This document shows positions 20,860 through 64,000 of a DNA stretch of 64,000 bases, piece by piece. Every line of letters starts with the position of its first letter. The stretch's first letter is position 1. Origin of the DNA: Enchytraeus crypticus (lineage: Eukaryota; Annelida; Clitellata; Enchytraeida; Enchytraeidae); contig CAJHZI010000278.1 in NCBI GenBank assembly GCA_905160935.1, forward strand, positions 289,001-353,000. Direction: 5' to 3'. The position numbers and the translations under genes were made by a program. The notes under the pieces were generated by a model. That model was not told the DNA's origin. It worked only from the letters and a program-made list of their open reading frames with translations, and searched no databases.

Positions 20860-21300
20860 TCATCTAGACTAATGTCACCATGTAGCAATCAATCATCTAG
20901 ACTAATGTCACCATGGATCAATCAATCATCTATACTGATGTCATTACAAATCAATCAATCATCTAGACTAATGTCACCATGGATCAATCAATCATCTATA
21001 CTGATGTCACCATGGATCAATCAATCATCTATACTGATGTCTCCATGGATCAATCAATCATCTATACTGATGTCTCCATGGATTAATCAATCATCTATAC
21101 TGATGTCACCACGAATCAATCATCTAGACTAATGTCACCACGTATCAATCAATCTTATGGAGTGATATGATCATGGATCAATCAATCATCTATACCAATG
21201 TCACCACAGATCAATCTATCATCTAGACCACGGATCAATCAATCATCTAGACCACGGATCCATCAATCATCTAGACCACGGATCAATCAATCATCTAGAC
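20860..21300. repeat. 32-bp array containing the dynein stop-codon context
   Basis: About a dozen units of TCAATCAATCATCTAGAC plus a variable 10-14 bp (TAATGTCACCATGGA or CACGGA). The last unit is the end of the dynein CDS itself: GTCTAGATGATTGA carries its last codons and TGA. The array would form the 3' UTR. Confidence 0.85.
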
Positions 21301-21441
21301 TGAGCAGTAGAGCTGCTCCACGTTTGGTCCAATGCTCAGCTGGTTTGTCCCCAGCTCTCAGGTCCACGGATACTATAAAACTAGACCTGCCCTGCTTGCC
21401 CGCTCTGTTGGGATAGTAGAAACACGGGCAGATGTACGAGC
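21287..21441 (-). CDS. DNAH2: DNAH2-like exon 41: C-terminus and stop
   Basis: [20 protein letters not shown] to [14 protein letters not shown], then TGA at 21287-21289. Acceptor TTGTTGCAG|G preceded by (TTG)n. This is the expected end of a DNAH2-type C-terminal domain. Confidence 0.95.
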
Positions 21442-22713: not shown

Positions 22714-22783
<70 letters not shown>

Positions 22784-24211: not shown

Positions 24212-24259
<48 letters not shown>

Positions 24260-24401
24260 GAGAGAGTGAGCGAGAGAGAGAGAGAAAGAAAAATTAACAG
24301 AGAGTGAGATAGATAGTGAGAGAGAAAAACAGAGAGAGAGAGATGGATAGTGAGAGACAGATTGATGAATAGTGAGAGAGAGAGAGAAAGAGATGGATAG
24401 T

Positions 24402-24446
<45 letters not shown>

Positions 24447-24815
24447 CTTCAGTCTGTGTTAGATATGATAAAATAATAGAGCCTCTAAGATTTATAGGAA
24501 TTTAATGTAAACCCCAGAAGTTTACATTAACTTCCTTATGCGATATTTTTATCTAGAAGACAGCAACAACACTGAAAGCCCAATTACATCAATGGCAAAA
24601 TGTAGAAAATAATAACAATATGAAATGTCAAAAATATCTAAACAATGGTAACCTAGAATACAATGTCAAACTGCATAAAATACTAAAAGGAAGAAAATAG
24701 AAAATTTGAAAATATACATGTACACTACTAGAATGTCTAATAAGGAATCCAAAATATGATAAATATTAGAAAAAAGCAAATATCAAAACGATTTGTCGTT
24801 TTATTAGTTAGACAC

Positions 24816-24861: not shown

Positions 24862-27800
24862 TGCACCGCCTAATGGCAGGCCCATGGTATATAAAGCCTC
24901 CACTATTCTCTATCTTCCGTTTTATTTTTCACGTCCACATACAAGTGGATCTTTAAATCATATATAACGTTCCTTTTGATATACCATTATTTTGGGGGGA
25001 TTCTGCTTATAACTAGGTGGACCCCCTATGCCTTCCTCAGCTTTGACTAACATTTGCTGGGCAGGGGCGTCATTCTCTGAGAAAACTTTCCTGTTTACCC
25101 AAATCAATCTACAGTTTACAATTATATTTGATTACAATGTACTTGATTATATATTTACAACACAGTTTATTCTTAAATTACTATTTATATTATTAATATT
25201 ATTAATATATTATTATTTACACTTTATCTACTTGCTAGATGATACTGTTACTATGTAATTCAATTTAATCATTTAATTCAATTTAATCATTTAATTCAAT
25301 TTAACTCATCATTTTAGATAACCCTAACTTCTTAGAGATAGACAACCCTAATTCTGTTGTAGACAACCCTAATTCTGTTGTAGACAACCCTAATTCTGTT
25401 GTAGACACACCTAACCTTACTGTAAACAACCCTAATTCTGTTGTAGCTAACCCTAATCTTACTGTAAACAACCCTAATTCAGTTGTGAACAACTAGGCTG
25501 TCAATCAAACCTCGTTGGGCCCGCCTCCTCGCCTCGACAGGCTTGAAGTGAATGGTGGGCATGTGACAGACAAGTTGCATTGGCTCCGCCTCTACCAAAC
25601 AGGCGTTCTTAACGTCCCACCCCGCTCCCTGTAGATACAACCCCCTCACCAATACACCGTCCTGCAATACAACATAGTGCAATACAGTACAATACAGTTC
25701 AATACAATACAATTAAATGCAATACAATACTACACAGTTAAATACAATACAATGCAATGCAACACAGTTCAATACAGTACAAAGCAATATAGTTCAATAC
25801 AATACAACACAACTCAATACAGTACAATACAATACAATACAATACAATACAATACAATACAATACAATACAATACAATACAATACAACACAGTTCAATAC
25901 AGTACAATATAACACAATTAAATACAATACAATACTACACAGTTGAATACAGTACAATGAAATATAGTTCAATACAATACAACACAGCTCAATACAGTAC
26001 AATTCAATACAATACAACACAGTCCAATACAGTGTATTGTATTGATACAATTGTATTAATACAATACAGTTGAAATAAAACAATGCAATACAAAATAAAG
26101 TATTGCAATTCACTAGAATAAAGATCAGTACAATACAAGAACATGCAATGAAATGCAATGTTCTAAATATGTTATAGAATACGGTACTCAGTATTAGTAT
26201 ACAAACTCAGAAAATTATTCAAATACAACTACATAAACAATATAATATAATGTAAATTGTAATTCCTTTAAAAAACCCAGCCACACCGATTCAACATCTA
26301 CAAATTGAAAGAGATGGGTTACTTTCTCCCACAAGATCTTCGAGTTCCATATTGTCTGCTCCAACAATATGGAACTCTCTGCTACAAAATCTTCGATCTT
26401 GTAATTGTATTGGTACTTTCCTTGGCAAGCTAAAAACCCATCTCTTCCCGCCATAGATCTAAATTTTTACCCGCTTGCCTTGGATCATAGACTTGCACTG
26501 TTTTGATCTCGCTTTCTCTTGTGGTCTCTGTGTACTCAGTCGTCATCGTGTGGTGCTTTGGCGCCAATTTGTGTAGAGTCTGCAAGAGACGTCCCTGACA
26601 TTGCCTTATGGCGAGGAACCGGACGTTAAATTCTTATTGATTGATATTGATTGATTGAACGTGGGCGACATACACTAAACATGTTCACAATAACGTCGTG
26701 TGTTTAACTTTTTAACTATAGAAATCGAACCTTCGGCGCTCCAGTGATGTTGGTGTCGTCCACTGTCATTACTGTGAACTCCCACGACAAGAGATCAATA
26801 GATATCTGCTCATCAAATCAATCAATAGATATGTGCTCATCAAATCAATCAATAGATATCTGCTCATCAAATCAATCAATAGATATCTGTTCATCAAATC
26901 AATTAATAGATATCTGCTCATCAAATCAATCAATAGATATCTGTTCATCAAATCAATCAATAGATATCTGCTCATCAAATCAATCAATAGATATCTGCTC
27001 ATCAAATCAATCGATAGATATCTGCTCATCAAATTAATCAATAGATATCTGCCCATCAAATCTATCAATAGATATCTGCTCATCAAATCAATCAATCAAT
27101 TAATCAGCTCCAAACTGATTCAATTACTTAGCATTAATCATTTCGCTCGGGAAGAAAATTAAATCTGACAGAAATCAGTCGTAATTTCGCAAATGAGCTG
27201 ACTTCCCAGTAACATACTAAATTTGAAATAAAAGATGAATAACTTTAAAATTCTTTGATGAATTAATAGATTAAATGATTGACTGATAAAATGATCGGAC
27301 AACCTTGAAGACAAAAGAGCTGGTGAACCGATTCACTGAATGCGGAACATGATCATTTAAAAATTGAGAAATGATTATTGATTGATTGATTATTTTTGCT
27401 AGACTCACGCTATTCTGCCTGGCCGATGTCTGTAGCACGGCAGTGAGGAACCCGGTGGGGAAGGTGAAGGCAGACAGCCAGAAGGTGGTGGGGGGGTGGG
27501 CAGTGCGGGCCCACCTCTCAAACAGCTCCACCCGCAGCACTAGGTCACGTGTCCATGAGCCTAGGGGCTTCATCGACGGGTAGGCCTACAACGAGCAATA
27601 TTCAATCAATCAATATGTAAATCCTAACATCGACGGGTATGCACTGTTAACATAATTTTAGAATAATTCAATTCATTAGCTTCAATTCACACTGTCAGGC
27701 ATCTCATAGTCGTTCAACCAATCATTTACTATATGCTCCATAATTATTAATTATATCTAATAAATGTCCACATAAAAGAGGTGTTTTAGAAAGAGTTAAA

Positions 27801-41860: not shown

Positions 41861-41894
<34 letters not shown>

Positions 41895-50485: not shown

Positions 50486-51612
50486 GAGAGAGGAACCTGT
50501 ATAGCCTCCTCTAGAGCAGGCATGGCCTCCATGAGATCTGCCAGAGCCATGTCAGCCATCTGTTGACACTTGCTCTCTTCCTCAGCTATACGTGCGCTCT
50601 TCTGTGCTACTGACTGATCAATCAATCAATCAATCATCTGTTGACACTTACTCTCCTCCTCAGCTATCCGTGCACTCTTATGCGCTACTGACTGATCAAT
50701 CAATCAATCAATCATCTGTTGACACTTACTCTCTTCCTCAGCTATACGTGCGCTCTTCTGCGCTACTGACTAATCAACCAATCAATCAATCAATCAAACA
50801 ATCAATCATTCAATAAATCGGCAAATCATTCATTCAAAATAAATAAAACAACAAATCATTCATTCAATAAATAAAACAACAAATCAATCATTCAATCCAT
50901 AAAACAACAAATCAATCATTCAATCAATAAAACAACAAATCAATCAGTCAATCAATAAAACAACAAATCAATCAGTCAATCAATAAAACAAAAGCTATTT
51001 TCAACAAGCGCTAGGTGGAATGTAATACGTCAGAGAGGAGGCATATTCGTATCACAACCCTGGTTAAACTGGCATTCCAGGGCAGATTATAAAACTAAAA
51101 CCTAACTCTCAACCCTAATCTAAAAACCAAAATCCTAACCCAAACTCTAATCCCTAAGTAAATTATTCACCACATTCGAACCCGTGACGTTATGATCGAA
51201 AGTCTGTCGCCATACCACTATCACTACAGTAGTTTATGGTTGTCTAAAGTTTTCTTAATGTTTTTAATAGAACGTTTAAAATGTCTACTAAACTCTGTAA
51301 ATGTAATCCCACTCCGAGGTCGAGTGTCTTAACGACATCGCCACTGTGGAGCCAGTGGCGATGTCGTTAAGACACTCGACCTCGGATCACTATGTGCGGG
51401 GTTCAAATCCTGGGCTCGCCCGTCACTGACATCGCTTTCGAGTGAGGAAACTGACGTTAACATCAGCTTTACCAGCTTTTACTAAAGCCCATCGTGATAC
51501 AAGAACCGATATCCAATACTATATATTATATCCGATATTGATACTACATATCAACCCATACTACATATCAATATGACATCATCCCTGGATGAGGAAAAGG
51601 ACGTTAAACCTT

Positions 51613-57000: not shown

Positions 57001-60000
57001 TAGCTGGATTGATTGATCTATTGATAGAGAGATAGACAGATAGATAGCTTGATTGATTGATCGATAGATAGATAGATTTACTGATTGATTGATAGATAGA
57101 TAGATAGATTTATTGATTGATAGATCGATTGATTGATCGATTGATTGATAGATGGATTGATAGATAGCTTGATTGACGGACGGACGGATGGACTACCATG
57201 CTCAATGGCGTCACGGAAGAGCACGAGGTCCATGGACACAACTCCTGGAGTGTTGTTGTACTCCATCAACATGCTCGACATGACTCTCTTCAGAGCTCCA
57301 GTGTCCTGTATGTCCTCATAGACATTGTCCCCACCCATGTAATCACCTGCGTCAATCAATCAATCAATCGATTAATCAATCAATCAATTAATCAATTAAT
57401 CAATCAACTCTCTTCAGAGCTCCAGTGTCTTGTTTGACCTCATAGGCATTGTCTACACCCATGTCTTAAATTAGAATTTTAATTAAAGAAAAATCTTAAA
57501 TTAAAATATTAATTCACAATTTTATTACCGAATGTAGGAGGTATTTTGTTAGGACAGATGTTATGGTACGTCTGATCGAATAGTGAGCCCAGTTTATCTG
57601 AGAGAATCTGAACAAAAACCTCCAGATCCTTATCATCAACCAAACGATCTGAGAACACCCTGTATTAATAGATATAATAGAACACCCTGTAGTAATAAAT
57701 AATAGAACACCCTGTAGCAACAGATAATAGAACACCCTGTAGCAACAGATAATAGAACACCCTGTAGCAACAGACAATAGAACACCCTGTAGCAACAGAT
57801 AATAGAACACCCTGTAGCAACAGATAATAGAACACCCTGCAGCAACAGATAATAAAACACCCTCTAGCAACAGATAATAAAACACCCTGTAGCAACAGAT
57901 AATAGAACACCCTGCAGCAGTATTTAATACAACACCTTGTAGTAATAGATACAACAGAACACCCTGTAGAAATAGATAATAGAACACAATAATAGATAGT
58001 AAATAATAATAAATAATAATAGATAATAAATCACAGTGAAATTCAATTAAATTAACTCAATGAAATTACTCAATTAATCACATAAATTAAAATAGTTAAA
58101 TTAATTACTTAATTAGAAATTACATAAATCACTGATCGATTGATTGACAGTGCGGTCGCTTGATTCATAAATTGTCTGATAATCAGGTTTGATTGATTGA
58201 TTAATTTACCTGAAGCACTCGTGAATCCAGAGTCTTATCAGCACAGTCTTGTTATCATGATATTTCTTATCAGCTCTCATTAGGCCTTGAAACACCTGAA
58301 CATACATATACATGTACATACACACACATACACGTACACATATATACACATACACACATCAGTACAGTCTTGTTATCATGACATCTCTTATCAGCTCTCA
58401 TTAGGCCTTGAAATACCTGAACATACATACACATACACATGCACATGTACACATACACGTACATACATATATATACACATACACATACACATATAAACAT
58501 AAACACCTGAGCATACATGTACAGTCATACACGTATAAACATAAACACCTGAGCATACATGTAGACATATAAAAATGGCCAATTAACTGTTACTAGAGAT
58601 ATCTTTAATGACTTACCCTGGAGATGAGGAGACTGAAACTTACCCTGGAGATGAGGAGAAAGAGACTTACCCTAGAGATGAGGAGATAGAAACTTACCCT
58701 GGAGATGAGGAGATATACTTACCCTGGAGATGAGGAGATGTAGACTTACCCTGGAGATAGAGACTTACCCTGGAGATAAGGAGATATAGACTTACCCTGG
58801 AGATAAGGAGATGTAGACTTACCCTGGAGATAGAGACTTACCCTGGAGATAAGGAGATATAGACTTACCCTGGAGATAGAGACTTACCCTGGAGATAGAG
58901 ACTTACCCTGGAGATAAGGAGATATAGACTTAACCTGGAGATAGAGACTTACCCTGGAGATATCTCTGAGATTGAAGAGGTAGTGTATCTTGGTAGGGGT
59001 AGGCAGGAACCTCCCCACCACGGCCCAGTACATGTCGATGGTTGCCTGGGTCATCAGGGACCCCACTGGCTTCAGCTCCTCATCGAAGTCCTGCAGCTTC
59101 TGAGAGATCATTGAGCCAAAGATACGCTTTATCTGAGAGTCCTACGTACATGATAAATCAATCAATCGATCAATCAATTAACCGATCAGTCGATCAACCA
59201 ATCAGTCGATCAATCAATCAATAAAATCAATCGATCAATCAGTCAGTACATCAATCAATCAAACAATCGATAAATAGTTCAATCAATCAATCAACTAATC
59301 ATTTAATCAATCGATCAATCAGACAGTGAATCAATCAATCGATTGTTTTATCAGTCAGTCAACCAATCGAGCGTTTAATCAATCGACTAATCAGTCAGTC
59401 AATCAACCAAACAATATTTCAGTCAATCAATCAATTAATCAATTTACACACGCACATATTTACCTGAGACCTGAGGGAACGTGACGTTACACACGCATAT
59501 GTTTACCTGAGGAAACGTTACACACGCACATGTTTACCTGAGGAAAGGTGAGGTTGATGAGGTTGAATTTACTCTGCAGTCGACGACTGATCGAAGTTCT
59601 GCCGCCACCTGGAGGTCCCATAGCTGTCACTAGCAGCATGTCCTATGATCAATCAATCAATCAAACAATCAATCATTCAATCGATCCATATTTCATCGTG
59701 CTAGTCGCACATGCACACGACGACAGTTCGATTCTCTACCTGACTCCTCTTGGGCACTTGTTTCTGCCTGTCGTATCAGAACCCTCTCTCTCTCTCTCTC
59801 ACTCTCTCTCTTTCTCTCTCTATCTTGTCTAGTCGCCTCTTACTTCACATTCACACAACGACAGTTCGATTCTCTACCTGAATTCTCTTGGTCACTTGTT
59901 TCTGCCTATCGTACCAGAACCCATAGTCCAGCCACAGCTTGATGAGCTCGAGAGGAGGTTGAGAGCCATACTGGTCCCTGGCCGGCATGTTGAAATCATC

Positions 60001-60269: not shown

Positions 60270-62678
60270 GATCAATCAATCAATCCACCAATCGATCAAT
60301 CAATCGATCAATCAATCAATCAATCAATCATTCACTAGCTTCCTGCCTCCCACAGGCACATACACCTCCTTAGTTCTTTTCTCCACCTTACTCTCTAGGG
60401 TGTCATGTACGTTGTTTGACGTCGTCTACCATCAATCAATCAATTAGTTCAATAAATCAATAGAGCTATCAATCAATCAATTAGTTTAATAAATTGATCA
60501 ATCCAGCAATCAATTAATCAATTCATCATTTAGTTCAATAAATCGATCAATCGAACCATCGATCAATCAATTCATCAGTTAGTTCAATAAATCAATCAAT
60601 CGAGCCATCGATCAATCAATTCATCAGTTAGTTCAATAAATCAATCAATCGAGCCATCGATCAATCAATTCATCAGTTAGTTCAATAAATCGATCAATCA
60701 AGCCATCGATCAATCAATTTCAATAGCATATTGAGCGTTGTTAAATGTAGTTCATCAGTCGCATAGATCTAAGTCGATAGATCGATCGATTGATTGATTG
60801 ATTGATTGATTGACTGAGTGATCGTAAGTCGCACAGACCTGAGCCGATAGATTGACGGTGAGAGTGTTATAGACGAGAGGGTCTAGCCTGTCGAGCACGC
60901 CTTGAGCCACAGACGTTTTACCCGTACCCACTGGCCCAACCAGCAGGACGGGACGCTCACACCCGATGAGGCTTTTGGTGAGGTAAGAGTACCGCACTGT
61001 GTCCACTGTGGGTACAATCAGCTTGTAGAACGGTAGACTAGATCAATCAGTCAATCAATCAATCAATCGATCAATCAATCGATCAATCAATCGATCAATC
61101 AATAGATCAATCAGTCAACCAATCATTCAGTCGATCAAACAATCAATCAATCAGTCAATCGATCGATCAATAAATCATCAATCAATAAATCAATCAATCA
61201 CTCAACCAAGCAATCAGTCAATAAATCAATTATACATACATGTGTACAACTTTATAAGTTAATCATTAAGTAAAATGTAACTTAGTAAACAATAACATTT
61301 GGTAAAATTATATAATAGAGAAGAATTTACAATCAGCAGTAGACAAATACTTAAATTATTTACCCGAGGTTCACCAAAAATAGACTAAAATTACTTAGTT
61401 TGGGGTTACAATTAACAAACCTAGGCTTATATTTCATTAACCTCGGGTTATATATTTCATTAACCTACGGTTAATTTGGCTAAACGAAATTTATATTTAA
61501 TTAACCAAGAGTGACTGGAGAAAGTCTATTCGCATCCCGACCCCGGTTAAACAGAGATTTAAGGGAAGATGATGTTGATGATGAACCTAGAGTGAAATGT
61601 AACTAACATGGGGTTATAACTAATAAAACCAGGGTTATATTAAATTAAGCTGGAGTCAAATTTAACAAACCTGTGGCTAAATGTAAGCAAAATGGGGTCA
61701 AATGTTATCAACCTAGGGTTAAATTTAACCAAATTGGGGTGAAATTTAATCAACCTGGCGTAATAATTAACCAACGTTAGGTTAACTTTAACCAACCCGG
61801 GGTTAAATGTAACCAACCTGGGGTTAAATTTGACCAACCTGGGGTTAAATCTAACCAGCCGGGGGTTAAATATAACCAACCTGGGGTTAAATTTAATCTA
61901 CCTGGGGTTAAATTAAAATAATTTAAAATAATTCATGATTTTAATTTAACCAGTCTGTGGTTAAATTTAACCAACCTGGGGTTACATTTAACCAACCTGG
62001 AGTTACATTTAACCAACCTGGGGTTACATTTAACCCCAGGCTGGGATTAAATTTAACCAACCTGGGGTTAAATTTAACCAACCTGGGGTTAAATTTAACC
62101 TACCTGAGGTTAAATGTAACCAATACGGGGTTAAAAGCAACCAACCTGGGGTTATACTTCCAGCCCTGCTTCAGCTTGTCCTCCCAATGAACCCAGGCCC
62201 GGGACTTGGGGTCCACGTAGTATTCATACACAGAATCTTTTGTTGGGAAAGTCCCATCGGCCTCTCTGAGGTAAGAATCGATCTTCTTCCTCCCGTCCTC
62301 ATCTACAGCTGAGCACAGCGACCAGATGAGAGAGAACTGAAACAAGAGCTCCACCATACGTGACCCCGTCTCAGAGTCTGTCAGGTCAACCTAGCAATCA
62401 ATCAATAGATCAATAGATCAATCAAGAGATCAATCAATCAAGAGATCCATCAATCAATCAATCAATCAAGAGATCAATCAGTCAATCAGTCAAGCAATCA
62501 AGAGATTAATCAATCCATCAATCAATCAGGATATCAAGAGATTAATCAATCAATAGATCAATCTATCAATAGATCAATCAGTCAAGAGATCAATAACTCA
62601 GTCAATAGATCAGTCAATCAATTTATCTACCAATCAGTAGATCCATCAAACAGTCAAGAGAGTTTGTGTTGTTGCTCA

Positions 62679-62709
<31 letters not shown>

Positions 62710-63569
62710 GCTGTCACTCACCCCACGCTCAGGACTGGACAGCACATCAGAGAGGGGTACAGAGGATAAACATACTACATGTTGTGGTGGTTAGTTATTG
62801 TTGTTGTTGTTGTTATTGTTGTTCTTACTGCTGTTGTTGTTGTTGTTATTGTTGTTGCTGTTATTGCTGTTGTTGTCACTCACCCCACGCTCAGGACTAG
62901 AGAGCACATCATAAGTGTACACAGTGATGTAAGCATACTACATGTTGTTGTTATTGTTGTTGTTATTATTATTGTTGTTGTTGTTGCTGTTATTTTTGTT
63001 GTTATTGCTGTTGATACTGTTGTTGATATTGTCGTTGTTTTTATTGTTGCTATTGTTGTTGTTGCTCACCCCACGCTCAGGACTAGAGAGCACATCATAC
63101 AGTGTACACAGTGATATAACGGCGTTGAGCTCAGAGACAGGTATCAGCTCCCTACAGTCATTCTGTCTCTTGAACGTCTGGACGCTGTTGATGTACTTGT
63201 GGAAGAGTCTGCGGAGTTCTTCCACTTCCTGTTTGTCCTGTTTCCGCTCCAGCCAGGACTCGACGTAGGGCTTCCAGCCGAGGTCGACGTAGTCGTAGTA
63301 GACCATGCCACAGCGAGACACAGTGGCCGGGGAGGCCACCGAGAGGTCCTCTACCTCAAACAGTAGTGACACCTGGTGAACGAATGTAATAAAGTGTTAA
63401 ATGTGTACTGACACCTGGTGATGAATGTAATAAAGTATTAAATATGTACTGACACCCGATGAATGAAATTTTAAGAAATATTAAATAGTAGTAAACAAGC
63501 CCCTAACAGGATTGACACCTGATTAAAATGTAAATTAGTTTGCGTGATTGATGAACTAATTGATTGACG

Positions 63570-63606
<37 letters not shown>

Positions 63607-63771
63607 CTGACTGATTGATTGATTGATTGATGACCTGTTCAGGCATGGATATCCTCTCTCCATTGATCAGCGTGAGGATCTTGTTGTCATCCATCACAGA
63701 GTTCATGCTCTCTATCCACAGTGTGTCCACAGGTCCATCAAATACTATCCATCTCTCTTCCTTCTTCTCCT
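21287..63771 (-). CDS. DNAH2: Axonemal dynein heavy chain, DNAH2-like (C-terminal half, 41 exons, 5' partial)
   Basis: This is a ciliary inner-arm dynein motor subunit, an ATP-driven minus-end microtubule motor. The 41 phase-consistent exons encode about 2,271 aa: end of AAA2, AAA3 (P-loop GPVGTGKTS, Walker [10 protein letters not shown]), AAA4 (P-loop GIGGSGRQS, Walker B FLFLDAQ), stalk coiled coils around the microtubule-binding domain ([17 protein letters not shown]), AAA5 ([17 protein letters not shown]), AAA6 ([18 protein letters not shown]) and the C-terminal domain ([60 protein letters not shown]). The family assignment rests on [18 protein letters not shown] AAA3 sequence, DSDFEVSENLL and the ending [10 protein letters not shown], all closest to animal DNAH2 (the I1/f 1-beta chain). 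Human DNAH2 is about 4,430 aa, so roughly 2,150 N-terminal residues lie beyond 64000. No frameshift or stop was found, so the gene looks functional. The introns total about 36 kb. Confidence 0.95.
21442..25510 (-). other. Dynein last intron, 4.1 kb, repeat-filled
   Basis: Contains G- and C-family repeat fragments (21590-21870, 22360-22615), (TA)n (22722-22780), a CAATCAGTCAATCCATCAGT array (23205-23560), a 49-bp tandem duplication (23862-23955), (GA)n (24190-24445), (TC)n (24818-24858) and a 21-bp AACCCTAATTCTGTTGTAGAC array (25316-25490). No further exon seen. Confidence 0.75.
25511..25661 (-). CDS. DNAH2: DNAH2-like exon 40
   Basis: 50 codons, [20 protein letters not shown] and [20 protein letters not shown]. 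Acceptor ATTGCAG|GAC, donor CGAG|GTTTGA. The next exon is 4.1 kb away. Confidence 0.94.
25661..26060. repeat. (AATAC)n-like array at the exon 40 acceptor
   Basis: AATACAATACAGTACAATTC-type pentamers begin at the acceptor itself (ATTGTATTGCAG on the gene strand). CTGTATTG recurs throughout, so many AG dinucleotides lie upstream of the functional one. Confidence 0.85.
26455..26660 (+). mobile_element. Dispersed element family D ending in TTGA
   Basis: GCCTTGGATCATAGACTTGC to GGACGTTAAATTCTTATTGA, then TTGATATTGATTGATTG. Shows the junction between element end and TTGA repeat. Confidence 0.65.
26731..26805 (-). CDS. DNAH2: DNAH2-like exon 39 (25-codon micro-exon)
   Basis: [17 protein letters not shown] to GAPK. 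Too short to stand out as an open frame; found by phase and similarity. Acceptor GAGCAG|ATATCT is the unit of the array at 26806-27090. Confidence 0.9.
26806..27090. repeat. Acceptor array of dynein exon 39
   Basis: Ten extra copies of a 22-27 bp unit ATAGATATCTGCTCATCAAA. On the gene strand each reads GATGAGCAGATATCTATTGA, identical to the exon 39 acceptor and its first 12 coding bases. Nine of ten keep AG. Confidence 0.9.
27409..27585 (-). CDS. DNAH2: DNAH2-like exon 38
   Basis: 59 codons, [15 protein letters not shown] and [20 protein letters not shown]. Donor AGC|GTGAGT. Confidence 0.95.
27810..27959 (-). CDS. DNAH2: DNAH2-like exon 37
   Basis: 50 codons, [19 protein letters not shown] and [11 protein letters not shown]. 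The donor AAA|GTATTA is weak. Confidence 0.92.
28651..28767 (-). CDS. DNAH2: DNAH2-like exon 36
   Basis: 39 codons, [20 protein letters not shown]. Donor GAG|GTCTGT, followed by a (GTT)n tract. Confidence 0.92.
29180..29470. repeat. 33-bp tandem array in dynein intron
   Basis: About eight units of GGTATTAAGTTGTGGTACAC plus GTCGCATAATAAA, next to exon 35, but the unit does not contain the exon edge. Confidence 0.85.
29491..29713 (-). CDS. DNAH2: DNAH2-like exon 35
   Basis: 74 codons, [20 protein letters not shown] and [13 protein letters not shown]. Donor GTG|GTAGGA. Confidence 0.93.
29790..29987 (-). mobile_element. Dispersed element family F, inverted
   Basis: CTCGCTCTATAAGAGCACTC and CCTATAGCTTGGGAAAAGTA match 20176-20372 in reverse. 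Confidence 0.65.
30219..30403 (-). CDS. DNAH2: DNAH2-like exon 34: C-terminal domain
   Basis: 61 codons, [20 protein letters not shown]. The donor CAA|GTCTCT is weak but is the only one that keeps phase with exon 35. Confidence 0.93.
30404..31491 (-). other. Dynein intron 33, mostly unique AT-rich sequence
   Basis: Holds a family G repeat (31160-31335: AACCAGGGTCGGGATAC, CTATTTGAGACTT) headed by (CAT)n. Otherwise nothing recognised. Confidence 0.55.
31492..31609 (-). mobile_element. Family E element abutting the exon 33 donor
   Basis: Matches 36308-36445 (TGACAACATCGAGCACTATT, AATCAGTCCAAA). It reaches to within a few bases of the donor GAG|GTAGAA. Confidence 0.65.
31610..31801 (-). CDS. 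DNAH2: DNAH2-like exon 33: C-terminal domain
   Basis: 64 codons, [20 protein letters not shown] and [13 protein letters not shown]. Donor GAG|GTAGAA directly abuts a dispersed repeat. Confidence 0.95.
32200..32310 (+). mobile_element. tRNA-derived SINE, family B
   Basis: GATACTCGACCGCGGATCAG, B box GGGTTCAAATCCTGGG, then GAGGAAACTGACGTTAACCT. Confidence 0.7.
32515..32712 (+). mobile_element. Dispersed element ending in (AG)n
   Basis: Same family as 2765-2930. Ends just before exon 32's donor side. Confidence 0.65.
32728..32925 (-). CDS. DNAH2: DNAH2-like exon 32: AAA6
   Basis: 66 codons, [20 protein letters not shown] and [10 protein letters not shown]. Acceptor TTTTAG|GGTAACTGG. Confidence 0.95.
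32926..33130. repeat. Acceptor array of dynein exon 32
   Basis: About four degenerate units of CCCAGTTACCCTAAAACAGC and ATGTAGGCATTAAAAATA. The first bases equal the exon start GGTAACTGG plus its TTTTAG acceptor. Confidence 0.75.
33215..33357. repeat. Donor array of dynein exon 31
   Basis: Four units of CTATGTAACTAGGTCACACT followed by GACCTCTCT variants; the functional donor GAGAG|GTCAGTGTGACC is the unit edge. Confidence 0.8.
33357..33485 (-). CDS. DNAH2: DNAH2-like exon 31: AAA6
   Basis: 43 codons, [20 protein letters not shown]. Donor GAGAG|GTCAGTG recurs in the intron. Confidence 0.93.
33490..33715. repeat. (TCAA)n tract upstream of dynein exon 31
   Basis: TCAATCAATCAATCGATCAA-type tetramers up to 6 bp from the acceptor. 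Confidence 0.85.
33887..34092 (-). CDS. DNAH2: DNAH2-like exon 30: AAA6
   Basis: 68 codons, [20 protein letters not shown] and [11 protein letters not shown]. Acceptor GTACAG|GAGAG, with three upstream copies. Confidence 0.94.
34093..34745. repeat. Acceptor array of dynein exon 30
   Basis: Three extra copies (34146-34200, 34415-34470, 34513-34570) of about 55 bp. Each keeps acceptor CTGTACAG|GAGAGTGG and the first ~45 exon bases, spaced by TATAGTACAACATAGTACAA pentamer-like filler derived from the acceptor side. Confidence 0.88.
34800..35226. repeat. (TTGA)n with a copy of the exon 29 donor edge
   Basis: TTGATTGATAGATTGA-type repeats. 35096-35160 duplicates the last ~60 bp of exon 29 ([19 protein letters not shown]) with a GT donor. 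Confidence 0.8.
35227..35410 (-). CDS. DNAH2: DNAH2-like exon 29
   Basis: 61 codons, [20 protein letters not shown] and [20 protein letters not shown]. Donor CCTG|GTGTGT; its 3' edge is copied at 35096-35160. Confidence 0.93.
35411..36101 (-). other. Dynein intron 28, part: (TCAA)n then unique sequence
   Basis: 35412-35740 is TCAATCAATTAATCAG-type repeat. 35741-36101 is unique with no exon seen. Confidence 0.6.
36102..36298 (+). pseudogene. Inverted duplicate of dynein exon 27 3' half with donor and intron start
   Basis: On the plus strand this reads [20 protein letters not shown] to YRTFAVYR, then GTGCGTC and about 90 bp of intron. It matches the reverse complement of 37204-37406 with about four substitutions and two fewer ATT units. 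It lies in the intron between exons 28 and 29 in antisense orientation, so it is a non-functional copy. Confidence 0.9.
36308..36445 (-). mobile_element. Dispersed element family E, inverted
   Basis: TGACAACATCTAGCACTGTT and AAATCAGTCCAAAAAC match 31492-31609. Immediately follows the inverted exon copy. Confidence 0.6.
36656..36770 (-). CDS. DNAH2: DNAH2-like exon 28
   Basis: 38 codons, [20 protein letters not shown] and [11 protein letters not shown]. Lies between the arms of the exon 27 inverted repeat. Confidence 0.94.
36785..36960. repeat. (TCAA)n upstream of dynein exon 28
   Basis: TCAATCAATCAGTCAG-type tetramers, 15 bp from the acceptor. Confidence 0.85.
37303..37502 (-). CDS. DNAH2: DNAH2-like exon 27
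   Basis: 66 codons, [20 protein letters not shown] and [17 protein letters not shown]. Its 3' half with donor exists as an inverted copy at 36102-36298. Confidence 0.94.
37503..38306 (-). other. Dynein intron 26 with (TCAA)n
   Basis: 37503-37790 is TCAATCAATCAACCAACC-type repeat reaching the acceptor TTGATCAG. A partial F-type fragment lies near 38020-38110. A 30-bp AACCAATCAGATTTAACGAG repeat (38200-38300) precedes exon 26. Confidence 0.6.
38307..38451 (-). CDS. DNAH2: DNAH2-like exon 26
   Basis: 48 codons, [20 protein letters not shown], helical linker between AAA5 and AAA6. Donor GAG|GTCTGA. Confidence 0.93.
38572..38700 (-). mobile_element. tRNA-derived SINE, family B, inverted
   Basis: CAAGATTTGAACCCCGCA is the inverted B box; same body as 18052-18190. 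Confidence 0.7.
39045..39177 (-). CDS. DNAH2: DNAH2-like exon 25
   Basis: 43 codons, [20 protein letters not shown]. Acceptor TGTAG|GACTGATGG, with three further copies of the acceptor edge upstream. Confidence 0.93.
39178..39490. repeat. Acceptor array of dynein exon 25
   Basis: Three further copies of a roughly 95-bp unit. Each has CTCCTTGCGCACCACTATAC and CTGAGCCATCAGTCCTAC (exon start plus acceptor), then (CA)n-rich filler. Confidence 0.88.
39749..39898 (-). CDS. DNAH2: DNAH2-like exon 24: AAA5
   Basis: 49 codons, [18 protein letters not shown] and [16 protein letters not shown]. Donor CAAG|GTTTGG in phase 1. Confidence 0.94.
39975..40127. repeat. Donor array of dynein exon 23
   Basis: About five units of TTGTAAACCTATTTTGATGA plus TGCATTTA, each equal on the gene strand to the exon end ATCATCAAAATAG|GTTTAC. 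Confidence 0.85.
40128..40278 (-). CDS. DNAH2: DNAH2-like exon 23: AAA5
   Basis: 50 codons, [20 protein letters not shown] and [12 protein letters not shown]. Donor AATAG|GTTTAC (phase 1) recurs several times downstream. Confidence 0.93.
40347..40545. repeat. Foldback: 40-bp inverted repeat plus direct third copy
   Basis: Arms 40347-40386 and 40405-40444 are reverse complements (GTAATGATATCCGTTAAAAA core) around an 18-bp loop GTGTTGCAGCAGGAACAT. Arm plus loop recurs at 40482-40545 with one change in the core. Confidence 0.85.
40690..40785 (+). mobile_element. Divergent family B element
   Basis: GCAGGGTTCAAATCCAGAGC and GTCACTGACATGCTATTCGA. A similar diverged copy is near 47140-47240. Confidence 0.5.
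40819..41034 (-). CDS. DNAH2: DNAH2-like exon 22: AAA5
   Basis: 72 codons, [20 protein letters not shown] and [19 protein letters not shown]. Donor AAG|GTTTTG. Confidence 0.95.
41340..41729. repeat. Donor-derived array of dynein exon 21
   Basis: About ten units of AACATTAGCTAATATGAGGT plus AGACAACAACAAC. On the gene strand TACCTCATATTAGCTAATG mirrors the exon 21 donor TACCTCAG|GTTAGC. Most copies have CAT instead of CAG|GT, so the donor is largely lost. Confidence 0.75.
41730..41855 (-). CDS. DNAH2: DNAH2-like exon 21: AAA5 start
   Basis: 42 codons, [20 protein letters not shown]. Donor CAG|GTTAGC seeds the downstream array; the 5' edge is copied at 41893-41937. Confidence 0.94.
41856..41990. 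repeat. (TCAA)n with a copy of the exon 21 acceptor edge
   Basis: 41893-41937 repeats ACGTCACCCACCAGCAATCC to AGGTCCTGCAAATC: about 40 bp of exon plus acceptor. Confidence 0.85.
42657..42821 (-). CDS. DNAH2: DNAH2-like exon 20: coiled coil 2
   Basis: 55 codons, [20 protein letters not shown] and [17 protein letters not shown]. Acceptor CTCAG|GTA, donor AAG|GTTCTG. Confidence 0.94.
42838..43290. repeat. (TCAA)n with longer-period structure upstream of exon 20
   Basis: TCAATCAGTCAATCAATCAA repeated with a period near 56 bp in 43085-43260. Confidence 0.85.
43439..43725 (-). CDS. DNAH2: DNAH2-like exon 19: microtubule-binding domain and coiled coil 2
   Basis: 95 codons, [40 protein letters not shown], then a Gln/Ala-rich helix. 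Acceptor TATTAG|GT recurs in the upstream intron. Confidence 0.94.
43726..44130. repeat. Acceptor array of dynein exon 19
   Basis: Five or six units of GATGAAGTTAGGATCACCTA followed by GTACAATGTA repeats. AGTTAGGATCAC is the exon start and CTAGTACAATG the acceptor side. Confidence 0.85.
44212..44353 (-). CDS. DNAH2: DNAH2-like exon 18: microtubule-binding domain
   Basis: 47 codons, [20 protein letters not shown] and [18 protein letters not shown], the stalk-tip microtubule-binding domain. Donor CTGG|GTGAGT. Confidence 0.94.
44354..45680 (-). other. 3' part of dynein intron 17
   Basis: (TCAA)n at 44355-44540, GAGT/CAGT repeats to 44640, then about 1 kb of AT-rich DNA with an internal diverged duplication (CAGTTTAACAAAGCACTAAA near 45050, 45370 and 45670). 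No exon seen. Confidence 0.6.
45686..45691 (-). promoter_or_regulatory. Poly(A) signal candidate of the nested gene
   Basis: AATAAA on the minus strand, about 220 bp after the distal stop and about 810 bp after the TAG. Confidence 0.3.
45909..49491 (-). CDS. Nested three-exon gene of unknown function with Ser/Thr repeat tail and in-frame TAG
   Basis: The exons are 49491-49375 (start [20 protein letters not shown], 39 codons), 48022-47966 ([19 protein letters not shown], 19 codons) and from 47048 down. All are in phase 0 with GT-AG sites. The third exon opens with [18 protein letters not shown] and [20 protein letters not shown]. The spacing of Leu-Leu, I-S-P and a closing K-W resembles the small helical TFIIS N-terminal/LW or integrase-binding-type bundles, a weak guess. 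A minisatellite tail of Ser/Thr/Ala-rich 9-13 residue repeats follows. A TAG at 46503-46505 would end the protein at 239 aa. The same frame then stays open through more repeats, poly-Ser and a basic nuclear-localisation-like end ([20 protein letters not shown]) to a stop at 45909, which would give about 437 codons. The gene lies wholly inside dynein intron 17, on the same strand. Confidence 0.7.
45990..46066 (-). repeat. CTG/CAG-type trinucleotide tract encoding poly-Ser
   Basis: About 22 consecutive serine codons (AGC/AGT) near the C-terminal end of the nested frame; GCTGCTGCTACT on the plus strand. Confidence 0.8.
46180..46900 (-). repeat. Coding minisatellite in the nested gene
   Basis: Degenerate units around GGCATTGCTGGTG (plus strand) encode Ser/Thr-rich repeats such as TSNATGAN and DSTSKAK. 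Another frame is also open (Pro-rich, 46160-47005), as expected of a stop-poor repeat. The phase-consistent frame is the Ser/Thr one. Confidence 0.8.
47590..47760. repeat. 12-bp repeat TTGATTAACTGA
   Basis: About 13 near-perfect copies in nested-gene intron 2. Confidence 0.9.
47878..47945 (+). mobile_element. Family D tail running into TTGA repeat
   Basis: GACGTCCCTGACATTGCC, GGACGTTAAATTCTTATTGA, then TTGATTGA. Confidence 0.6.
48200..48345 (-). mobile_element. Divergent family B element
   Basis: TCACTGGGTTTGAGCCCTGG as inverted B box, with GATGTCAGTGACTGG. Confidence 0.5.
48535..49310. repeat. 31-bp satellite, about 24 near-identical units
   Basis: CTACTGATTGATTGATAATG plus AAGGATARTAA. 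One position alternates A/G between otherwise identical units. Lies in nested-gene intron 1 and dynein intron 17. Confidence 0.92.
49622..49669 (-). promoter_or_regulatory. CCAAT x3 plus CRE-like site upstream of the nested gene
   Basis: Within 48 bp there are three CCAAT pentamers (near 49623, 49642 and 49665; ATTGG on the gene strand) and a TGACGTAA ATF/CREB-like octamer at 49652-49659. They lie about 130-180 bp upstream of the chosen start codon, a typical NF-Y/CREB arrangement. This argues that the longer in-frame MAGLRQ extension is promoter/5' UTR, not protein. Confidence 0.5.
49696..49749. repeat. 16-bp perfect inverted repeat
   Basis: AGTCCGTTAACTCTCT (49696-49711) and its reverse complement (49734-49749), 22-bp loop, just upstream of the nested-gene promoter motifs. 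Confidence 0.85.
49835..50035. repeat. Direct duplication of about 80 bp
   Basis: GGATGGAATCC, AACTGACGACAAGTA and GTGGAGCGGTAGTCATT-like segments occur twice, about 125 bp apart. Confidence 0.75.
50107..50490. repeat. (ATT)n followed by (AG)n next to exon 17
   Basis: ATT-rich 50107-50260, AG-rich 50280-50490, ending 6 bp from the exon 17 donor. Confidence 0.9.
50497..50613 (-). CDS. DNAH2: DNAH2-like exon 17: stalk coiled coil 1 end
   Basis: 39 codons, [17 protein letters not shown] and MPALEEAIQ. Acceptor TTGATCAG|TCAGTAGC. The next exon is 6.1 kb away across the nested gene. Confidence 0.92.
50614..51000. repeat. Acceptor copies of exon 17 and (TCAA)n
   Basis: Two copies (to 50700 and 50776) of CTGTTGACACTTACTCTCCT through GCTACTGACTGATCAATC, i.e. 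acceptor plus about 60 exon bases, then TCAA and AATAAAACAACAAATCAATC repeats. Confidence 0.85.
51314..51385. repeat. Perfect 33-bp inverted repeat at a SINE head
   Basis: 51314-51346 and 51353-51385 are exact reverse complements with a 6-bp spacer (core GTGTCTTAACGACATCGCCA). Confidence 0.9.
51353..51480 (+). mobile_element. tRNA-derived SINE, family B, most complete copy
   Basis: A-box-like AGTGGCGATGTCGTTAAGAC, B box GGGGTTCAAATCCTGGG, GAGTGAGGAAACTGACGTTA and CTTTACCAGCTTTT. Head duplicated in inverse orientation. Confidence 0.75.
51570..51790 (+). mobile_element. Family C tail with (AAT)n
   Basis: TGACATCATCCCTGGATGAG, GGACGTTAAACCTTTATAAT, then about 170 bp of AAT/AAC triplets. Confidence 0.65.
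51985..52195 (-). CDS. DNAH2: DNAH2-like exon 16: stalk coiled coil 1
   Basis: 70 codons of heptad-like sequence, [19 protein letters not shown] to [13 protein letters not shown]. Acceptor is CTCTAG|ACTGCTACAG; the phase excludes the alternative AG ten bases further on. Confidence 0.92.
52196..52420. repeat. Acceptor array of dynein exon 16
   Basis: ACAGTCATAC decamers interspersed with two copies of TTCTCCTGCAGCAGTCTAGA or a variant, i.e. exon start plus acceptor. Confidence 0.85.
52421..52595. repeat. Donor array of dynein exon 15
   Basis: About six units of GATAGTCTAACTGTTTATAG; on the gene strand CTATAAACA|GTTAGACTATC is the exon 15 donor edge. Confidence 0.88.
52596..52741 (-). CDS. 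DNAH2: DNAH2-like exon 15: AAA4 end to stalk base
   Basis: 48 codons, [20 protein letters not shown]. Donor TATAAACA|GTTAGA (phase 2) recurs in the intron. Confidence 0.92.
52800..52930 (+). mobile_element. Dispersed family G element
   Basis: AATCCCAGTTTAACCAGGGT, CGAATAGACTTTCTCCAGTC, CCTATTTGC, headed by (CAT)n. Related copies near 21590, 31160, 42360, 54365 and 56230. Confidence 0.6.
53021..53118 (+). mobile_element. tRNA-derived SINE, family B
   Basis: TATTCGACCGCGGATCAGTA to AACTAACGTTAACATTAGC. Confidence 0.65.
53379..53611 (+). mobile_element. tRNA-derived SINE, family A
   Basis: Complete copy in the intron between exons 14 and 15, with CGTGGGTTCGAATCCCTGCC and the standard 3' end. 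Confidence 0.8.
53670..53802 (-). CDS. DNAH2: DNAH2-like exon 14: AAA4
   Basis: 44 codons, [20 protein letters not shown], then acidic LDLSSDEE. Acceptor TTGATAG|G, donor GAG|GTAAAG. Confidence 0.93.
53805..54040. repeat. (TCAA)n and (TA)n
   Basis: TCAATCAATCAGTCAATCAA from the exon 14 acceptor, then (TA)n at 54002-54038. Confidence 0.85.
54156..54295 (-). CDS. DNAH2: DNAH2-like exon 13: AAA4
   Basis: 46 codons, [20 protein letters not shown]. Acceptor TTGATAG|GTT, donor in phase 2. Confidence 0.93.
54355..54520 (+). mobile_element. Dispersed family G element
   Basis: (CAT)n head, GAATCCCAGATTAACCAGGG, TCTCAAATCCTCTCTGTTCT, TATTTGAGACTTCCA. Confidence 0.6.
54850..55053 (+). mobile_element. 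Dispersed element family F
   Basis: AGGAGTGCTCTTATGGAGCG and GAGTATGAATATGTACCTTG with AG-rich tail, as at 20176. Confidence 0.65.
55404..55564 (-). CDS. DNAH2: DNAH2-like exon 12: AAA4 Walker B
   Basis: 53 codons, LKRLYFNTG, Walker B VFLFLDAQ and [20 protein letters not shown]. The donor GAG|GTCGAT is weak. Confidence 0.93.
55880..56050. repeat. 19-bp array TAAATTAATTCGACGAGG
   Basis: About nine near-perfect units between exons 11 and 12; no exon edge in the unit. Confidence 0.9.
56368..56535 (-). CDS. DNAH2: DNAH2-like exon 11: AAA4 P-loop
   Basis: 55 codons with the AAA4 Walker [15 protein letters not shown] and HYRKQEYRE. Acceptor TCGCAG|TG, next to a TGACGACTGA decamer array. Confidence 0.94.
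56536..56655. repeat. Decamer array at the exon 11 acceptor
   Basis: CAGTCGTCAT repeated about ten times directly intronic of TCGCAG. Confidence 0.88.
56700..57180. repeat. (TTGA)n block between exons 10 and 11
   Basis: Degenerate TTGATTGATAGATAGA-type repeats right up to the exon 10 donor region. Confidence 0.85.
57197..57346 (-). CDS. DNAH2: DNAH2-like exon 10: entry to AAA4
   Basis: 49 codons, [12 protein letters not shown] and [14 protein letters not shown]. Donor CATG|GTAGTC in phase 1. An internal part is copied at 57404-57465. Confidence 0.92.
57404..57465. repeat. Partial copy of exon 10
   Basis: CTCTCTTCAGAGCTCCAGTG to CATTGTCTACACCCATG repeats an internal 60 bp of exon 10, preceded by (TCAA)n. 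Confidence 0.8.
57529..57659 (-). CDS. DNAH2: DNAH2-like exon 9
   Basis: 43 codons, [19 protein letters not shown] and [10 protein letters not shown]. Acceptor TACAG|GGTGTTC is the unit of a tandem array upstream. Confidence 0.92.
57660..57970. repeat. Acceptor array of dynein exon 9
   Basis: About eleven units of AACACCCTGTAGCAACAGAT plus AATAG. On the gene strand each is CTACAG|GGTGTT, matching the exon 9 acceptor and first coding bases. Confidence 0.9.
58210..58295 (-). CDS. DNAH2: DNAH2-like exon 8
   Basis: 28 codons, [15 protein letters not shown] and RLWIHECF. Donor in phase 2 (AG|GTAAAT). Its 5' two-thirds plus acceptor is duplicated at 58354-58425. Confidence 0.92.
58296..58600. repeat. 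Exon 8 acceptor copy in (CA/TA)-rich repeat
   Basis: 58354-58425 repeats CAGTCTTGTTATCATGACAT to CCTTGAAATACCTGAACATA: about 55 exon bases plus the acceptor. Flanked by ACATACACATACACG-type repeat. Confidence 0.85.
58608..58952. repeat. Donor array of dynein exon 7 (about 14 copies)
   Basis: Units of 19 or 27 bp, ACTTACCCTGGAGATAAGGA with or without GATATAG. On the gene strand each carries ATCTCCAGG|GTAAGT, the exact exon 7 end and donor. Nearly all keep GTAAG. Confidence 0.95.
58953..59141 (-). CDS. DNAH2: DNAH2-like exon 7: AAA3 lid
   Basis: 63 codons, [20 protein letters not shown] and [20 protein letters not shown]. Donor AGG|GTAAGT, near consensus, followed by about 14 further copies of the same edge. 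Confidence 0.95.
59150..59537. repeat. (TCAA)n and exon 6 donor copies
   Basis: 59150-59450 TCAATCGATCAATCAG-type. 59458-59537 holds two further ACACACGCACATGTTTACCTG units, with the donor CAG|GTAAACA. Confidence 0.85.
59538..59642 (-). CDS. DNAH2: DNAH2-like exon 6: AAA3 sensor segment
   Basis: 35 codons, [20 protein letters not shown] to LINLTFPQ. Donor CAG|GTAAAC, repeated twice more downstream. Confidence 0.94.
59703..59790. repeat. Copy of dynein exon 5 donor edge
   Basis: GACGACAGTTCGATTCTCTA, CCTGACTCCTCTTGGGCACT and TTTCTGCC duplicate 59853-59925, donor included, followed by (TC)n. Confidence 0.85.
59878..60102 (-). CDS. DNAH2: DNAH2-like exon 5: AAA3 Walker B
   Basis: Encodes [20 protein letters not shown], the Walker [10 protein letters not shown], and [20 protein letters not shown], the most DNAH2-like segment in the window. 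Both exon ends have partial copies nearby. Confidence 0.95.
60110..60780. repeat. (TCAA)n, (TA)n and copy of exon 5 acceptor edge
   Basis: 60336-60437 repeats about 100 bp (CTTCCTGCCTCCCACAGGCA to GACGTCGTCTACCATCAATC): the exon 5 start plus acceptor, about 90% identical. A 57-bp-period TCAATCGAGCCATCGATCAA array follows. Confidence 0.85.
60839..61037 (-). CDS. DNAH2: DNAH2-like exon 4: AAA3 P-loop
   Basis: Encodes [19 protein letters not shown] and the AAA3 Walker [10 protein letters not shown]. Acceptor GATCTAG|T drawn from a (TTGA)n tract; donor CAG|GTCTGT. Confidence 0.94.
61420..62145. repeat. Donor array of dynein exon 3 (about two dozen copies)
   Basis: Units of about 19 bp, AACCAACCTGGGGTTAAATT. 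On the gene strand AACCCCAG|GTTGGT equals the exon 3 end and donor. Copies nearest the exon are best conserved; those beyond 500 bp are degenerate. Confidence 0.93.
62146..62390 (-). CDS. DNAH2: DNAH2-like exon 3: AAA2-AAA3 link
   Basis: Encodes [20 protein letters not shown] through [13 protein letters not shown]. Donor AACCCCAG|GTTGGT in phase 2. This donor edge is the unit of the 0.7 kb array downstream. Confidence 0.93.
62391..63069. repeat. (TCAA)n, (TTG)n and two copies of exon 2 donor edge
   Basis: 62705-62765 and 62876-62940 repeat CTCACCCCACGCTCAGGACT through CAGCACATCA: donor plus 45-60 exon bases, embedded in GTTGTTGTT. Confidence 0.88.
63070..63372 (-). CDS. DNAH2: DNAH2-like exon 2: AAA2 C-terminal part
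   Basis: 101 codons with [20 protein letters not shown], the arginine-finger-like segment of AAA2. Acceptor ACCAG|GTG, donor GGG|GTGAGC. Both edges are tandemly copied in the flanking introns. Confidence 0.93.
63373..63640. repeat. Acceptor array of exon 2 and (TTGA)n
   Basis: Three more units of TGACACCTGGTGATGAATGT and AATAAAGTATTAAAT to 63520 (acceptor ACCAG|GTGTCA), then (TTGA)n to the exon 1 donor. Confidence 0.85.
63635..63771 (-). CDS. DNAH2: DNAH2-like exon 1 of window: AAA2
   Basis: Encodes [18 protein letters not shown], the AAA2 Walker-B region, then [14 protein letters not shown]. Acceptor AACAG|AG in phase 1, donor CAG|GTCATC. Partial copies lie upstream in the gene at 63800-63885 and 63930-63985. 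Confidence 0.92.
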
Positions 63772-64000
63772 CTGTTAATCAATCAATCAATAAATCAATC
63801 AATCAAGCACAGAGTTCATGCTCTCTATCCACAGTGTGTCCACAGGTCCATCAAACACTATCCACCTCTCCTCCTTCTTCTCCTCTGTCAATCAATCGAT
63901 CAATCACTCAATCAATCAATCAATCGATCAATCAATCAATCATAGAGTTAATGCTCTCTATCCACAGTGTGTCCACCAGTCAATACTGGACAGGACTCGT
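63772..64000. repeat. Two copies of exon 1 5' part in (TCAA)n
   Basis: 63808-63888 and 63940-63985 repeat GAGTTCATGCTCTCTATCCA and CAGTGTGTCCACAGGTCCAT. The first includes the acceptor CTCTGTCAATC; the second is cut by a rearrangement. Confidence 0.85.

Follow-up and report, generated by a model that had tools for sequence, protein, structure and literature searches.

Tandem arrays whose repeat unit contains an authentic splice junction flank many exons of a DNAH2-type dynein heavy chain gene in the annelid Enchytraeus crypticus. The gene lies in a 64,000-nucleotide stretch (bases 289001-353000) of contig CAJHZI010000278.1, the whole of which is referred to as the window. The splice-junction arrays are real, and they are a dense case, in another phylum, of a structure known from lancelets. 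They are probably mirage-type minisatellites produced by local duplication tolerated at exon edges.

Junction copies in the DNAH2 gene

63771-21287, minus strand: gene for a DNAH2-type dynein heavy chain; its 41 exons in the window run from AAA2 to the stop codon

The part of the gene in the window has 6830 nt of coding sequence, read as an uninterrupted frame of 2275 residues with one terminal stop, and all 40 introns are GT-AG. The closest PDB relatives of every dynein piece searched are mammalian DNAH2. A purpose-written spliced-alignment program returned the same 41 exons, apart from the outer ends of the first and last; since the program was given the protein of this model, the agreement checks the program and not the model.

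Junction copies were detected with a strict test, in which the 24-mer centred on a junction has to recur within 800 bp, matching at 9 or more of 12 positions per half and at 19 or more of 24 overall. Of the 40 donors 9 have such a copy, as do 11 of the 41 acceptors; together they belong to 19 of the 41 exons. When each junction was instead compared with the surroundings of same-kind junctions of the gene at least 2.5 kb away, none of 1374 donor and 1454 acceptor trials gave a match (0/2828). A looser cut (17/24) raised the counts to 10/40 donors and 15/41 acceptors, against 9/1374 and 12/1454 in the control. Exon 10 is added by blastn, and exons 24, 32 and 40 by Tandem Repeats Finder (TRF), giving junction copies on 23 of 41 exons, or 22 without exon 40, a weak case in a TATTG-rich stretch. 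These figures bear out an earlier sequence-only reading of this DNA, which had reported such copies for more than 20 of the 41 dynein exons and for two exons of THOC7; both THOC7 exons have acceptor copies. The arrays and duplications are as follows.

63695..63919, minus: exon 1 acceptor array, GATT tail with acceptor and up to 77-83 nt of exon (blastn, TRF)
63363..63487, minus: exon 2 acceptor array, 41-bp unit (TRF)
62710..62932, minus: exon 2 donor, last 47-50 nt of exon with donor, two copies (blastn)
61632..62154, minus: exon 3 donor array, 21/42-bp unit, 6 strict and 23 relaxed copies
60757..60780, minus: exon 4 donor, single copy
60334..60437, minus: exon 5 acceptor side, first 92 nt of exon with acceptor copied (blastn)
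59728..59784, minus: exon 5 donor side, last 45 nt of exon with donor copied (blastn)
59469..59546, minus: exon 6 donor array, 31-bp unit (TRF)
58610..58962, minus: exon 7 donor array (donor at 58953), ATCTCCAGG before and GTAAGTC after the junction, 10 strict and 14 relaxed copies, the sole clearly graded array
58237..58563, minus: exon 8 acceptor array (blastn, TRF)
57652..58031, minus: exon 9 acceptor array, ACAG before and GGTGTTCT after the junction, 25-bp unit, 12 relaxed copies (1 strict)
57407..57464, minus: exon 10, nt 7-64 of exon copied into the upstream intron (blastn)
52406..52572, minus: exon 15 donor array, 2 strict and 6 relaxed copies
52277..52376, minus: exon 16 acceptor side, exon start, two copies (blastn)
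50557..50991, minus: exon 17 acceptor array, first 57 nt twice with GATT between (blastn, TRF)
43708..44099, minus: exon 19 acceptor array, 40-bp unit (TRF)
41811..41963, minus: exon 21 acceptor duplication, 77-bp unit with 45 nt of exon (blastn, TRF)
39964..40150, minus: exon 23 donor array, 28-bp unit (blastn, TRF)
39882..39960, minus: exon 24 acceptor duplication, 37-bp unit (TRF)
39137..39519, minus: exon 25 acceptor array, 99-bp unit including 41 nt of exon, 3 extra copies (blastn, TRF)
36102..36298, plus: 203-bp inverted copy (95%) inside intron 28, covering the end of exon 27, the donor and the first part of intron 27
35091..35157, minus: exon 29 donor, last 55 nt of exon with donor copied (blastn)
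34045..34750, minus: exon 30 acceptor array, 100-bp unit including 48 nt of exon, 3 extra copies (blastn, TRF)
32915..33075, minus: exon 32 acceptor array, 41-bp unit (TRF)
26794..27096, minus: exon 39 acceptor array (acceptor at 26805), 10 extra copies of a 27-bp unit, 23-24/24 identical
20826..21300, minus: array over the stop codon and the beginning of the 3' untranslated region, a constraint boundary and no splice junction
16512..16919, plus: THOC7 exon, acceptor with ~46-49 nt of exon, 4 upstream copies among GATT runs (by eye)
17638..17830, plus: next THOC7 exon, acceptor with exon start, 2 upstream copies (by eye)

The start of the interval earlier assigned to junction copies, 20860, falls in the array over the stop codon, which does not span a splice junction.

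Introners or other dispersed elements that had inserted at numerous places would also leave many introns of one gene bearing arrays, as is seen here. Such insertion is refuted by the units, which are private to each junction in all 2828 control trials and whose lengths vary by junction from 15 to 121 bp, and we give it practically no weight.

The position of the copies is highly regular. All 27 strict donor copies lie downstream of their donor and all 27 strict acceptor copies upstream of their acceptor, so that 54 of 54 sit in the adjoining intron; the proposal that one junction stays intact and that selection tolerates the duplication agrees with this. Exon-derived blastn copies in introns reach the exon end in 20 of 22 cases in the window and 57 of 59 in a paralogue described below (77/81 overall), and 80 of 81 matches are direct, as expected from duplication of a contiguous segment across the junction.

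A single junction has at most 10 strict or 23 relaxed copies in this gene. The supposed grading of copies, best beside the exon, proved weak: similarity declines with distance from the exon in 6 of 9 testable arrays and rises slightly in the remaining 3, and among the declining ones the exon 7 donor is clear (rho -0.73) and one other borderline (n=4). Likewise, the description of introns as built from junction copies suits individual introns, since 7 of the 17 junction-spanning TRF arrays occupy more than half of their intron, but not the gene as a whole, where these arrays make up 4381 of 35,655 intron bp (12%).

The arrays are younger than the introns

Junction arrays are general to some degree in this genome. 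We applied the strict test to other dynein and myosin genes; exon ends in the distant paralogues and the myosins were taken from alignment to DNAH2 or myosin VIIa, and some of these junctions may be off. For each dynein, named by its contig, the copies at donors and acceptors, the affected junctions and the mid-intron repeat rate are given below.

Window gene: 9/40 donors, 11/41 acceptors; 20/81 junctions; 0.376
C519: 7/35 donors, 10/35 acceptors; 17/70 junctions; 0.340
C440: 1/22 donors, 2/22 acceptors; 3/44 junctions; 0.171
C204: 3/35 donors, 1/35 acceptors; 4/70 junctions; 0.125
C452: 0/8 donors, 1/8 acceptors; 1/16 junctions; 0.092
C328: 2/18 donors, 1/18 acceptors; 3/36 junctions; 0.087

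The junction rate broadly tracks the mid-intron repeat rate, and C204, C328, C440 and C452 together have copies at 11 of 166 junctions. Fifteen introns from the 5' half of the window's gene were also modelled and have copies at 0/15 donors and 4/15 acceptors; loci L012-L013, which contain masked stretches, were not used for gene models. Three myosin loci, included in the k-mer test only, gave 0/8 donors and 2/8 acceptors, 0/7 and 0/7, and 0/9 and 2/9 (4/48 junctions). A further dynein heavy chain on C178 (loci L026-L027, G000:C178:620001-640000) has three long exons over 2274 aligned residues and a higher G+C content. At its two introns in the alignment the strict test found copies at 0/2 donors and 0/2 acceptors, and the k-mer test detected no local repeats in it. 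This gene, which is either an intron-poor paralogue or foreign DNA, was excluded from the array counts and the GT/AG comparison below.

The most informative of these genes is a second DNAH2 on C519 (loci L014-L016, G000:C519:230001-260000), a natural control for intron turnover. Exons 6-41 lie in that stretch, mostly with 60-85% identity per exon, and it has other arrays: its exon 7 donor carries a 36-bp unit with 30 nt of exon in ~20 repeats, and its exon 20 acceptor has 12 copies upstream. Intron positions agree with those of the window gene within one residue in 34 of 35 cases. Arrays stand at the same junction in both paralogues for 1 donor and 2 acceptors out of 35 each, where chance would give 1.0 and 2.6 (Fisher p=1). 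Inheritance of the arrays from before the paralogue split is rejected by this chance-level sharing. With the same introns present in the paralogue and arrays at other junctions, the introns are old, and the arrays young and independent.

This comparison also bears on whether the arrays record intron birth, by tandem duplication of an exon piece containing AG/GT (Rogers-type intron gain). The units do contain AG/GT-like junctions, and such a model is proposed for lancelet mirages in PMC3087553, but the paralogue has the same introns without those arrays, and the strict donor and acceptor copies lie on one side only of their junctions. For the 35 introns compared, intron birth is largely refuted, and we regard it as very improbable.

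Assembly error in repetitive DNA might be suspected, given that the arrays are known from one assembled sequence alone. The assembly comprises 802 contigs for 524 Mb, the copies are diverged and unevenly spaced, and the same architecture recurs on a number of contigs and is not confined to one gene family, all of which makes such an artefact a slim prospect.

A probable origin: local duplication tolerated at exon edges

We favour the following origin. Short segments (~15-160 bp) would be duplicated head to tail within introns and across intron edges. A duplication wholly within an exon would alter the protein and be lost; one spanning a junction would leave the outermost junction intact beside the exon and place a surplus copy with GT or AG in the intron, where it would be nearly neutral. 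Slippage or unequal exchange would then expand some copies to arrays, which would later decay. As the exon-side copy is protected by selection, junction arrays should be recognisable for longer than intron-only arrays. The mutational step would be template switching or slippage, and the inverted 203-bp copy of exon 27 points to template switching and not slippage alone. Splicing presumably uses the outermost site. The array over the stop codon, a single case, may mean that the edge of constraint counts and not splicing as such. The inverted exon 27 copy could in principle also pair with exon 27 in the pre-mRNA.

Are splice junctions preferred sites?

A competing explanation makes the splice junction a preferred site, either because more duplications start there (for example because transcription or splicing of these genes brings breaks or template switching with it) or because duplications of whole junctions are better tolerated than those that cut a signal. 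Repeat coverage does not favour it: in the window, local coverage falls from 0.376 in introns to 0.22-0.27 at junctions and 0.03 in exons, and the k-mer coverage has no junction peak. The array counts cover the six dynein genes listed above, one of which is the gene where the pattern was noticed. When whole arrays were placed uniformly on these genes, 40 of 317 junctions were overlapped against 50.8±5.6 expected, which is no excess; when exon overlap was restricted to at most 60 bp, the expectation fell to 20.4±4.2 and the same 40 became an excess.

Several results weigh against neutral duplication as the whole account. With founding units placed at random, 39 of 160 non-microsatellite arrays span a junction, whereas 7.2 are expected, or 17.0 allowing two units. 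A forward simulation, in which exons were protected while tandem duplications, deletions and substitutions struck at random, was run in 5 settings; in each, the junction-spanning count came within 10% of what two units predict, so that 17.0 is a fair neutral figure. By gene, the numbers seen and expected from two units are 17/5.8 in the window, 14/6.5 in C519, 2/1.9 in C204, 3/0.6 in C328, 2/1.4 in C440 and 1/0.7 in C452. Gene-matched simulations covered four of the six genes. For the window gene, 17 of 60 arrays gave P 3-4e-4, or P 4-6e-4 with microsatellite-like arrays included (18/67); for C519, 14 of 31 gave P 7e-4 and 0.0065. Array edges also cluster: in the zone reaching 40 bp into the exon and 20 bp into the intron there are ~2-7 per kb, against ~1 per kb deeper in the intron, on both donor and acceptor sides; the exception is the last 8 bp of the exon, at 0.8-1.6 per kb. 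In the simulation the edge densities of these positions differ from one another by no more than ~two-fold. A roughly two-fold surplus at the junctions of the two DNAH2 genes is left unexplained by local duplication tolerated at exon edges.

The gene-matched simulations gave no junction excess in C204 and C440, and in C519, a paralogue found by homology alone, significance was reached with microsatellite-like arrays left out; once they were counted (14/46) the excess became marginal or absent (P 0.04 and 0.17). Flat coverage and a surplus of arrays answer different questions, because the real junction always lies at the edge of its array. The view that there is no bias at all, taken from the flat coverage, was overturned by the founder test and the simulations. 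The earlier claim that units contain the junction more often than random placement predicts is upheld by the founder counts but not by uniform placement of whole arrays, by C204 and C440, or by coverage. Neutral duplication accounts for about half of the junction arrays in the DNAH2 genes, leaving a modest surplus there, and for all of those in two other dyneins. We think a preferred site, with a bias of about two-fold, unlikely. Equally doubtful, in our judgement, is the broader proposal that a mutational or selective hot spot ~two-fold above neutral directs tandem duplication to splice junctions in this annelid and, convergently, in lancelets. If it were true, introns of some genes would be renewed from their own edges.

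Intron ends and oriented GATT repeats

Introns had also been proposed to grow from both ends. Repeat coverage at 5' ends is no richer than mid-intron (0.399 and 0.376 in the window; 0.331 and 0.340 in C519), so the proposal is not supported. The 3' ends are richer in repeats in the window (0.674) and C519 (0.472), and likewise in C328, C440 and C452, though not in C204; this enrichment is largely oriented (GATT)n. Among 173 introns, from the six dynein genes and the 5' half of the window's gene, the last 150 bp contain GATT repeats in 52 and AATC repeats in 3; the corresponding numbers are 11 and 18 in the first 150 bp and 30 and 10 in the middle. Further T/G-rich units prefer the same sense at 3' ends (TG 8:1, TGTA 9:1, ATG 12:3, GTT 8:0). 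Together with a T content of 0.45 at positions -23 to -4, with or without GATT, the oriented T/G-rich units fit a general demand for T-rich 3' ends.

Two special roles for the GATT tails were considered and rejected. As substitutes for a T-rich tract they do not stand out, since T at positions -23 to -4 is the same either way and the pyrimidine content is 0.52 with GATT and 0.58 without. Pairing of 5' (AATC)n with 3' (GATT)n across introns, for which fish introns with (AC)m/(GT)n, reportedly described by Lin et al. in 2016, provide a model, finds no support in co-occurrence: 8 introns have both repeats and 7.6 are expected overall (window 4, with 5.75 expected; C519 3, with 1.5; C440 1, with 0.2; none in C204, C328 and C452). 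It is our conjecture that TTGAT units also serve as branch sites. Several copied exon pieces stop where the exon shares a few bases with an adjoining GATT run, for example at exon 17, exon 21 and the first of the two THOC7 exons with arrays (by eye).

Splice signals in the surplus copies

The extra junctions might be functional, as decoys, spare splice sites or splicing regulators. Across 29 donor and 38 acceptor arrays from the same genes as the 173 introns, GT was kept in 0.877 of copies and other positions in 0.837 (p=0.19), and AG in 0.911 versus 0.858 (p=0.02); with a stricter cut the values were 0.923 versus 0.880 for GT (p=0.046) and 0.957 versus 0.902 for AG (p=0.003). Three of the four comparisons, with the real GT matched in 88-92% and the real AG in 91-96% of copies, lie below 0.05. 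The other positions are kept almost equally (0.84-0.90), the search itself favours the word centre, and the paralogues share arrays no more than chance predicts. As the search has this preference, we read the figures as showing no purging and no clear conservation of the signals. They are compatible with slight conservation of GT/AG in the copies, but function as the reason for the arrays is highly improbable.

Real and surplus splice sites with similar flanks adjoin in these introns, up to ~20 per junction in the paralogue. The choice of the spliceosome among many near-equal sites becomes directly testable here, as does the share of intron turnover due to local duplication tolerated at exon edges. 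The arrays are also a warning to gene predictors and assemblers, which may meet pseudo-exons in such genomes.

Neighbouring features and host

The THOC7 gene on the plus strand of the window is identified by a Pfam THOC7 match (4.6e-35). Within intron 17 of the dynein (49540-45900, minus, same strand) are open frames of another apparent multi-exon gene, which end in low-complexity, S/T- and P-rich sequence; a 122-residue piece of it has no Pfam match. Intron 40 contains, at 23889-23740 (minus), a diverged duplicate of the last dynein exon, which has a stop codon of its own and a 49-bp repeat at its upstream edge and is possibly an alternative or dead last exon. A dispersed element with a tRNA-like motif (GAGCCCAGGATTTGAACCCC...) recurs in introns and flanks, for example at 53080-53020, 51480-51400, 40750-40700 and 32280-32210 (by eye), and is probably a short interspersed element. 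Adjacent uninterrupted Kelch-repeat and RING/B-box (TRIM-like) frames lie at 5907-6890 and 7900-9063 (minus); TRF found no array inside them except a short one at 6818-6859, at the upstream edge of the Kelch frame.

On a 15.2-kb mitochondrial contig, open frames give the order nad5, nad4, nad1, nad3, nad2, cox1, cox2, cox3, nad6, cob, atp6 on one strand. Gene names are our reading of the translations, the contig is taken as circular, so that atp6 adjoins nad5, and ribosomal RNA and small genes are left out. The placement of atp6 between cob and nad5, of nad5 before nad4, and of nad3 between nad1 and nad2 is seemingly confined to annelids and their kin, according to PMC2639372. All three placements are present, which makes the host an annelid and not a lancelet.

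Comparison with known systems

In the literature searched, which was barely directed at annelids and did not extend to most subscription journals, no report of boundary-spanning arrays in annelids was found. A first candidate in another annelid may be an earthworm metallothionein clone, whose exon 4 has unexplained duplications that are absent from the transcript (PMC12783039). The sequence-only reading had treated the arrays as new, yet the same structure is known from lancelets, where boundary-spanning tandem repeats were named mirages (Adh, 2002, cited in PMC3087553). Mirages are described in the globins BflGb6 and BflGb9, TnC, PGBD5 and Adh3; their copies keep AG/GT, their length is unstable, splicing seems normal, and they have been proposed to take part in intron gain (PMC3087553, PMC3902484).

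Other systems share single features with these arrays. In human genes within segmental duplications (PMC2812944), repeat arrays likewise occur at exon-intron boundaries; they are variable and, in recent paralogues, give rise to new introns or to alternative transcripts, whereas here introns common to both paralogues are decorated. Tandem-repeat genes such as UBC, with dual-specific AGGT sites (PMC10809524), likewise have a splice site in each unit, but there the array is coding and the site acts as both 5' and 3' site, while here the extra units are intronic and private to one junction. Intron gain in potato RdRp (PMC4974935) has tandem duplication as its proposed source; here the introns predate the arrays. 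Introners (PMC9860276) are also repeated intron-associated sequences, but no junction sequence is common to introns of the window gene.

The likeness to lancelet mirages is closer. In both, the unit contains the authentic exon-intron boundary (20/81 junctions of the window gene by the strict test), both 5' and 3' boundaries are hit (9/40 donors and 11/41 acceptors), and many copies keep splice signals (GT 0.88-0.92, AG 0.91-0.96). Splicing of lancelet mirages was checked by reverse-transcription PCR, where the present arrays offer an intact frame over the outermost sites. The host differs, being an annelid by mitochondrial gene order while mirages are reported in cephalochordates, a difference of distribution and not of definition. 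About half of the exons of one gene are affected here, and tests against a paralogue and a neutral model have been added. The lancelet structure is thereby carried to a distant phylum, at a density sufficient for statistics.
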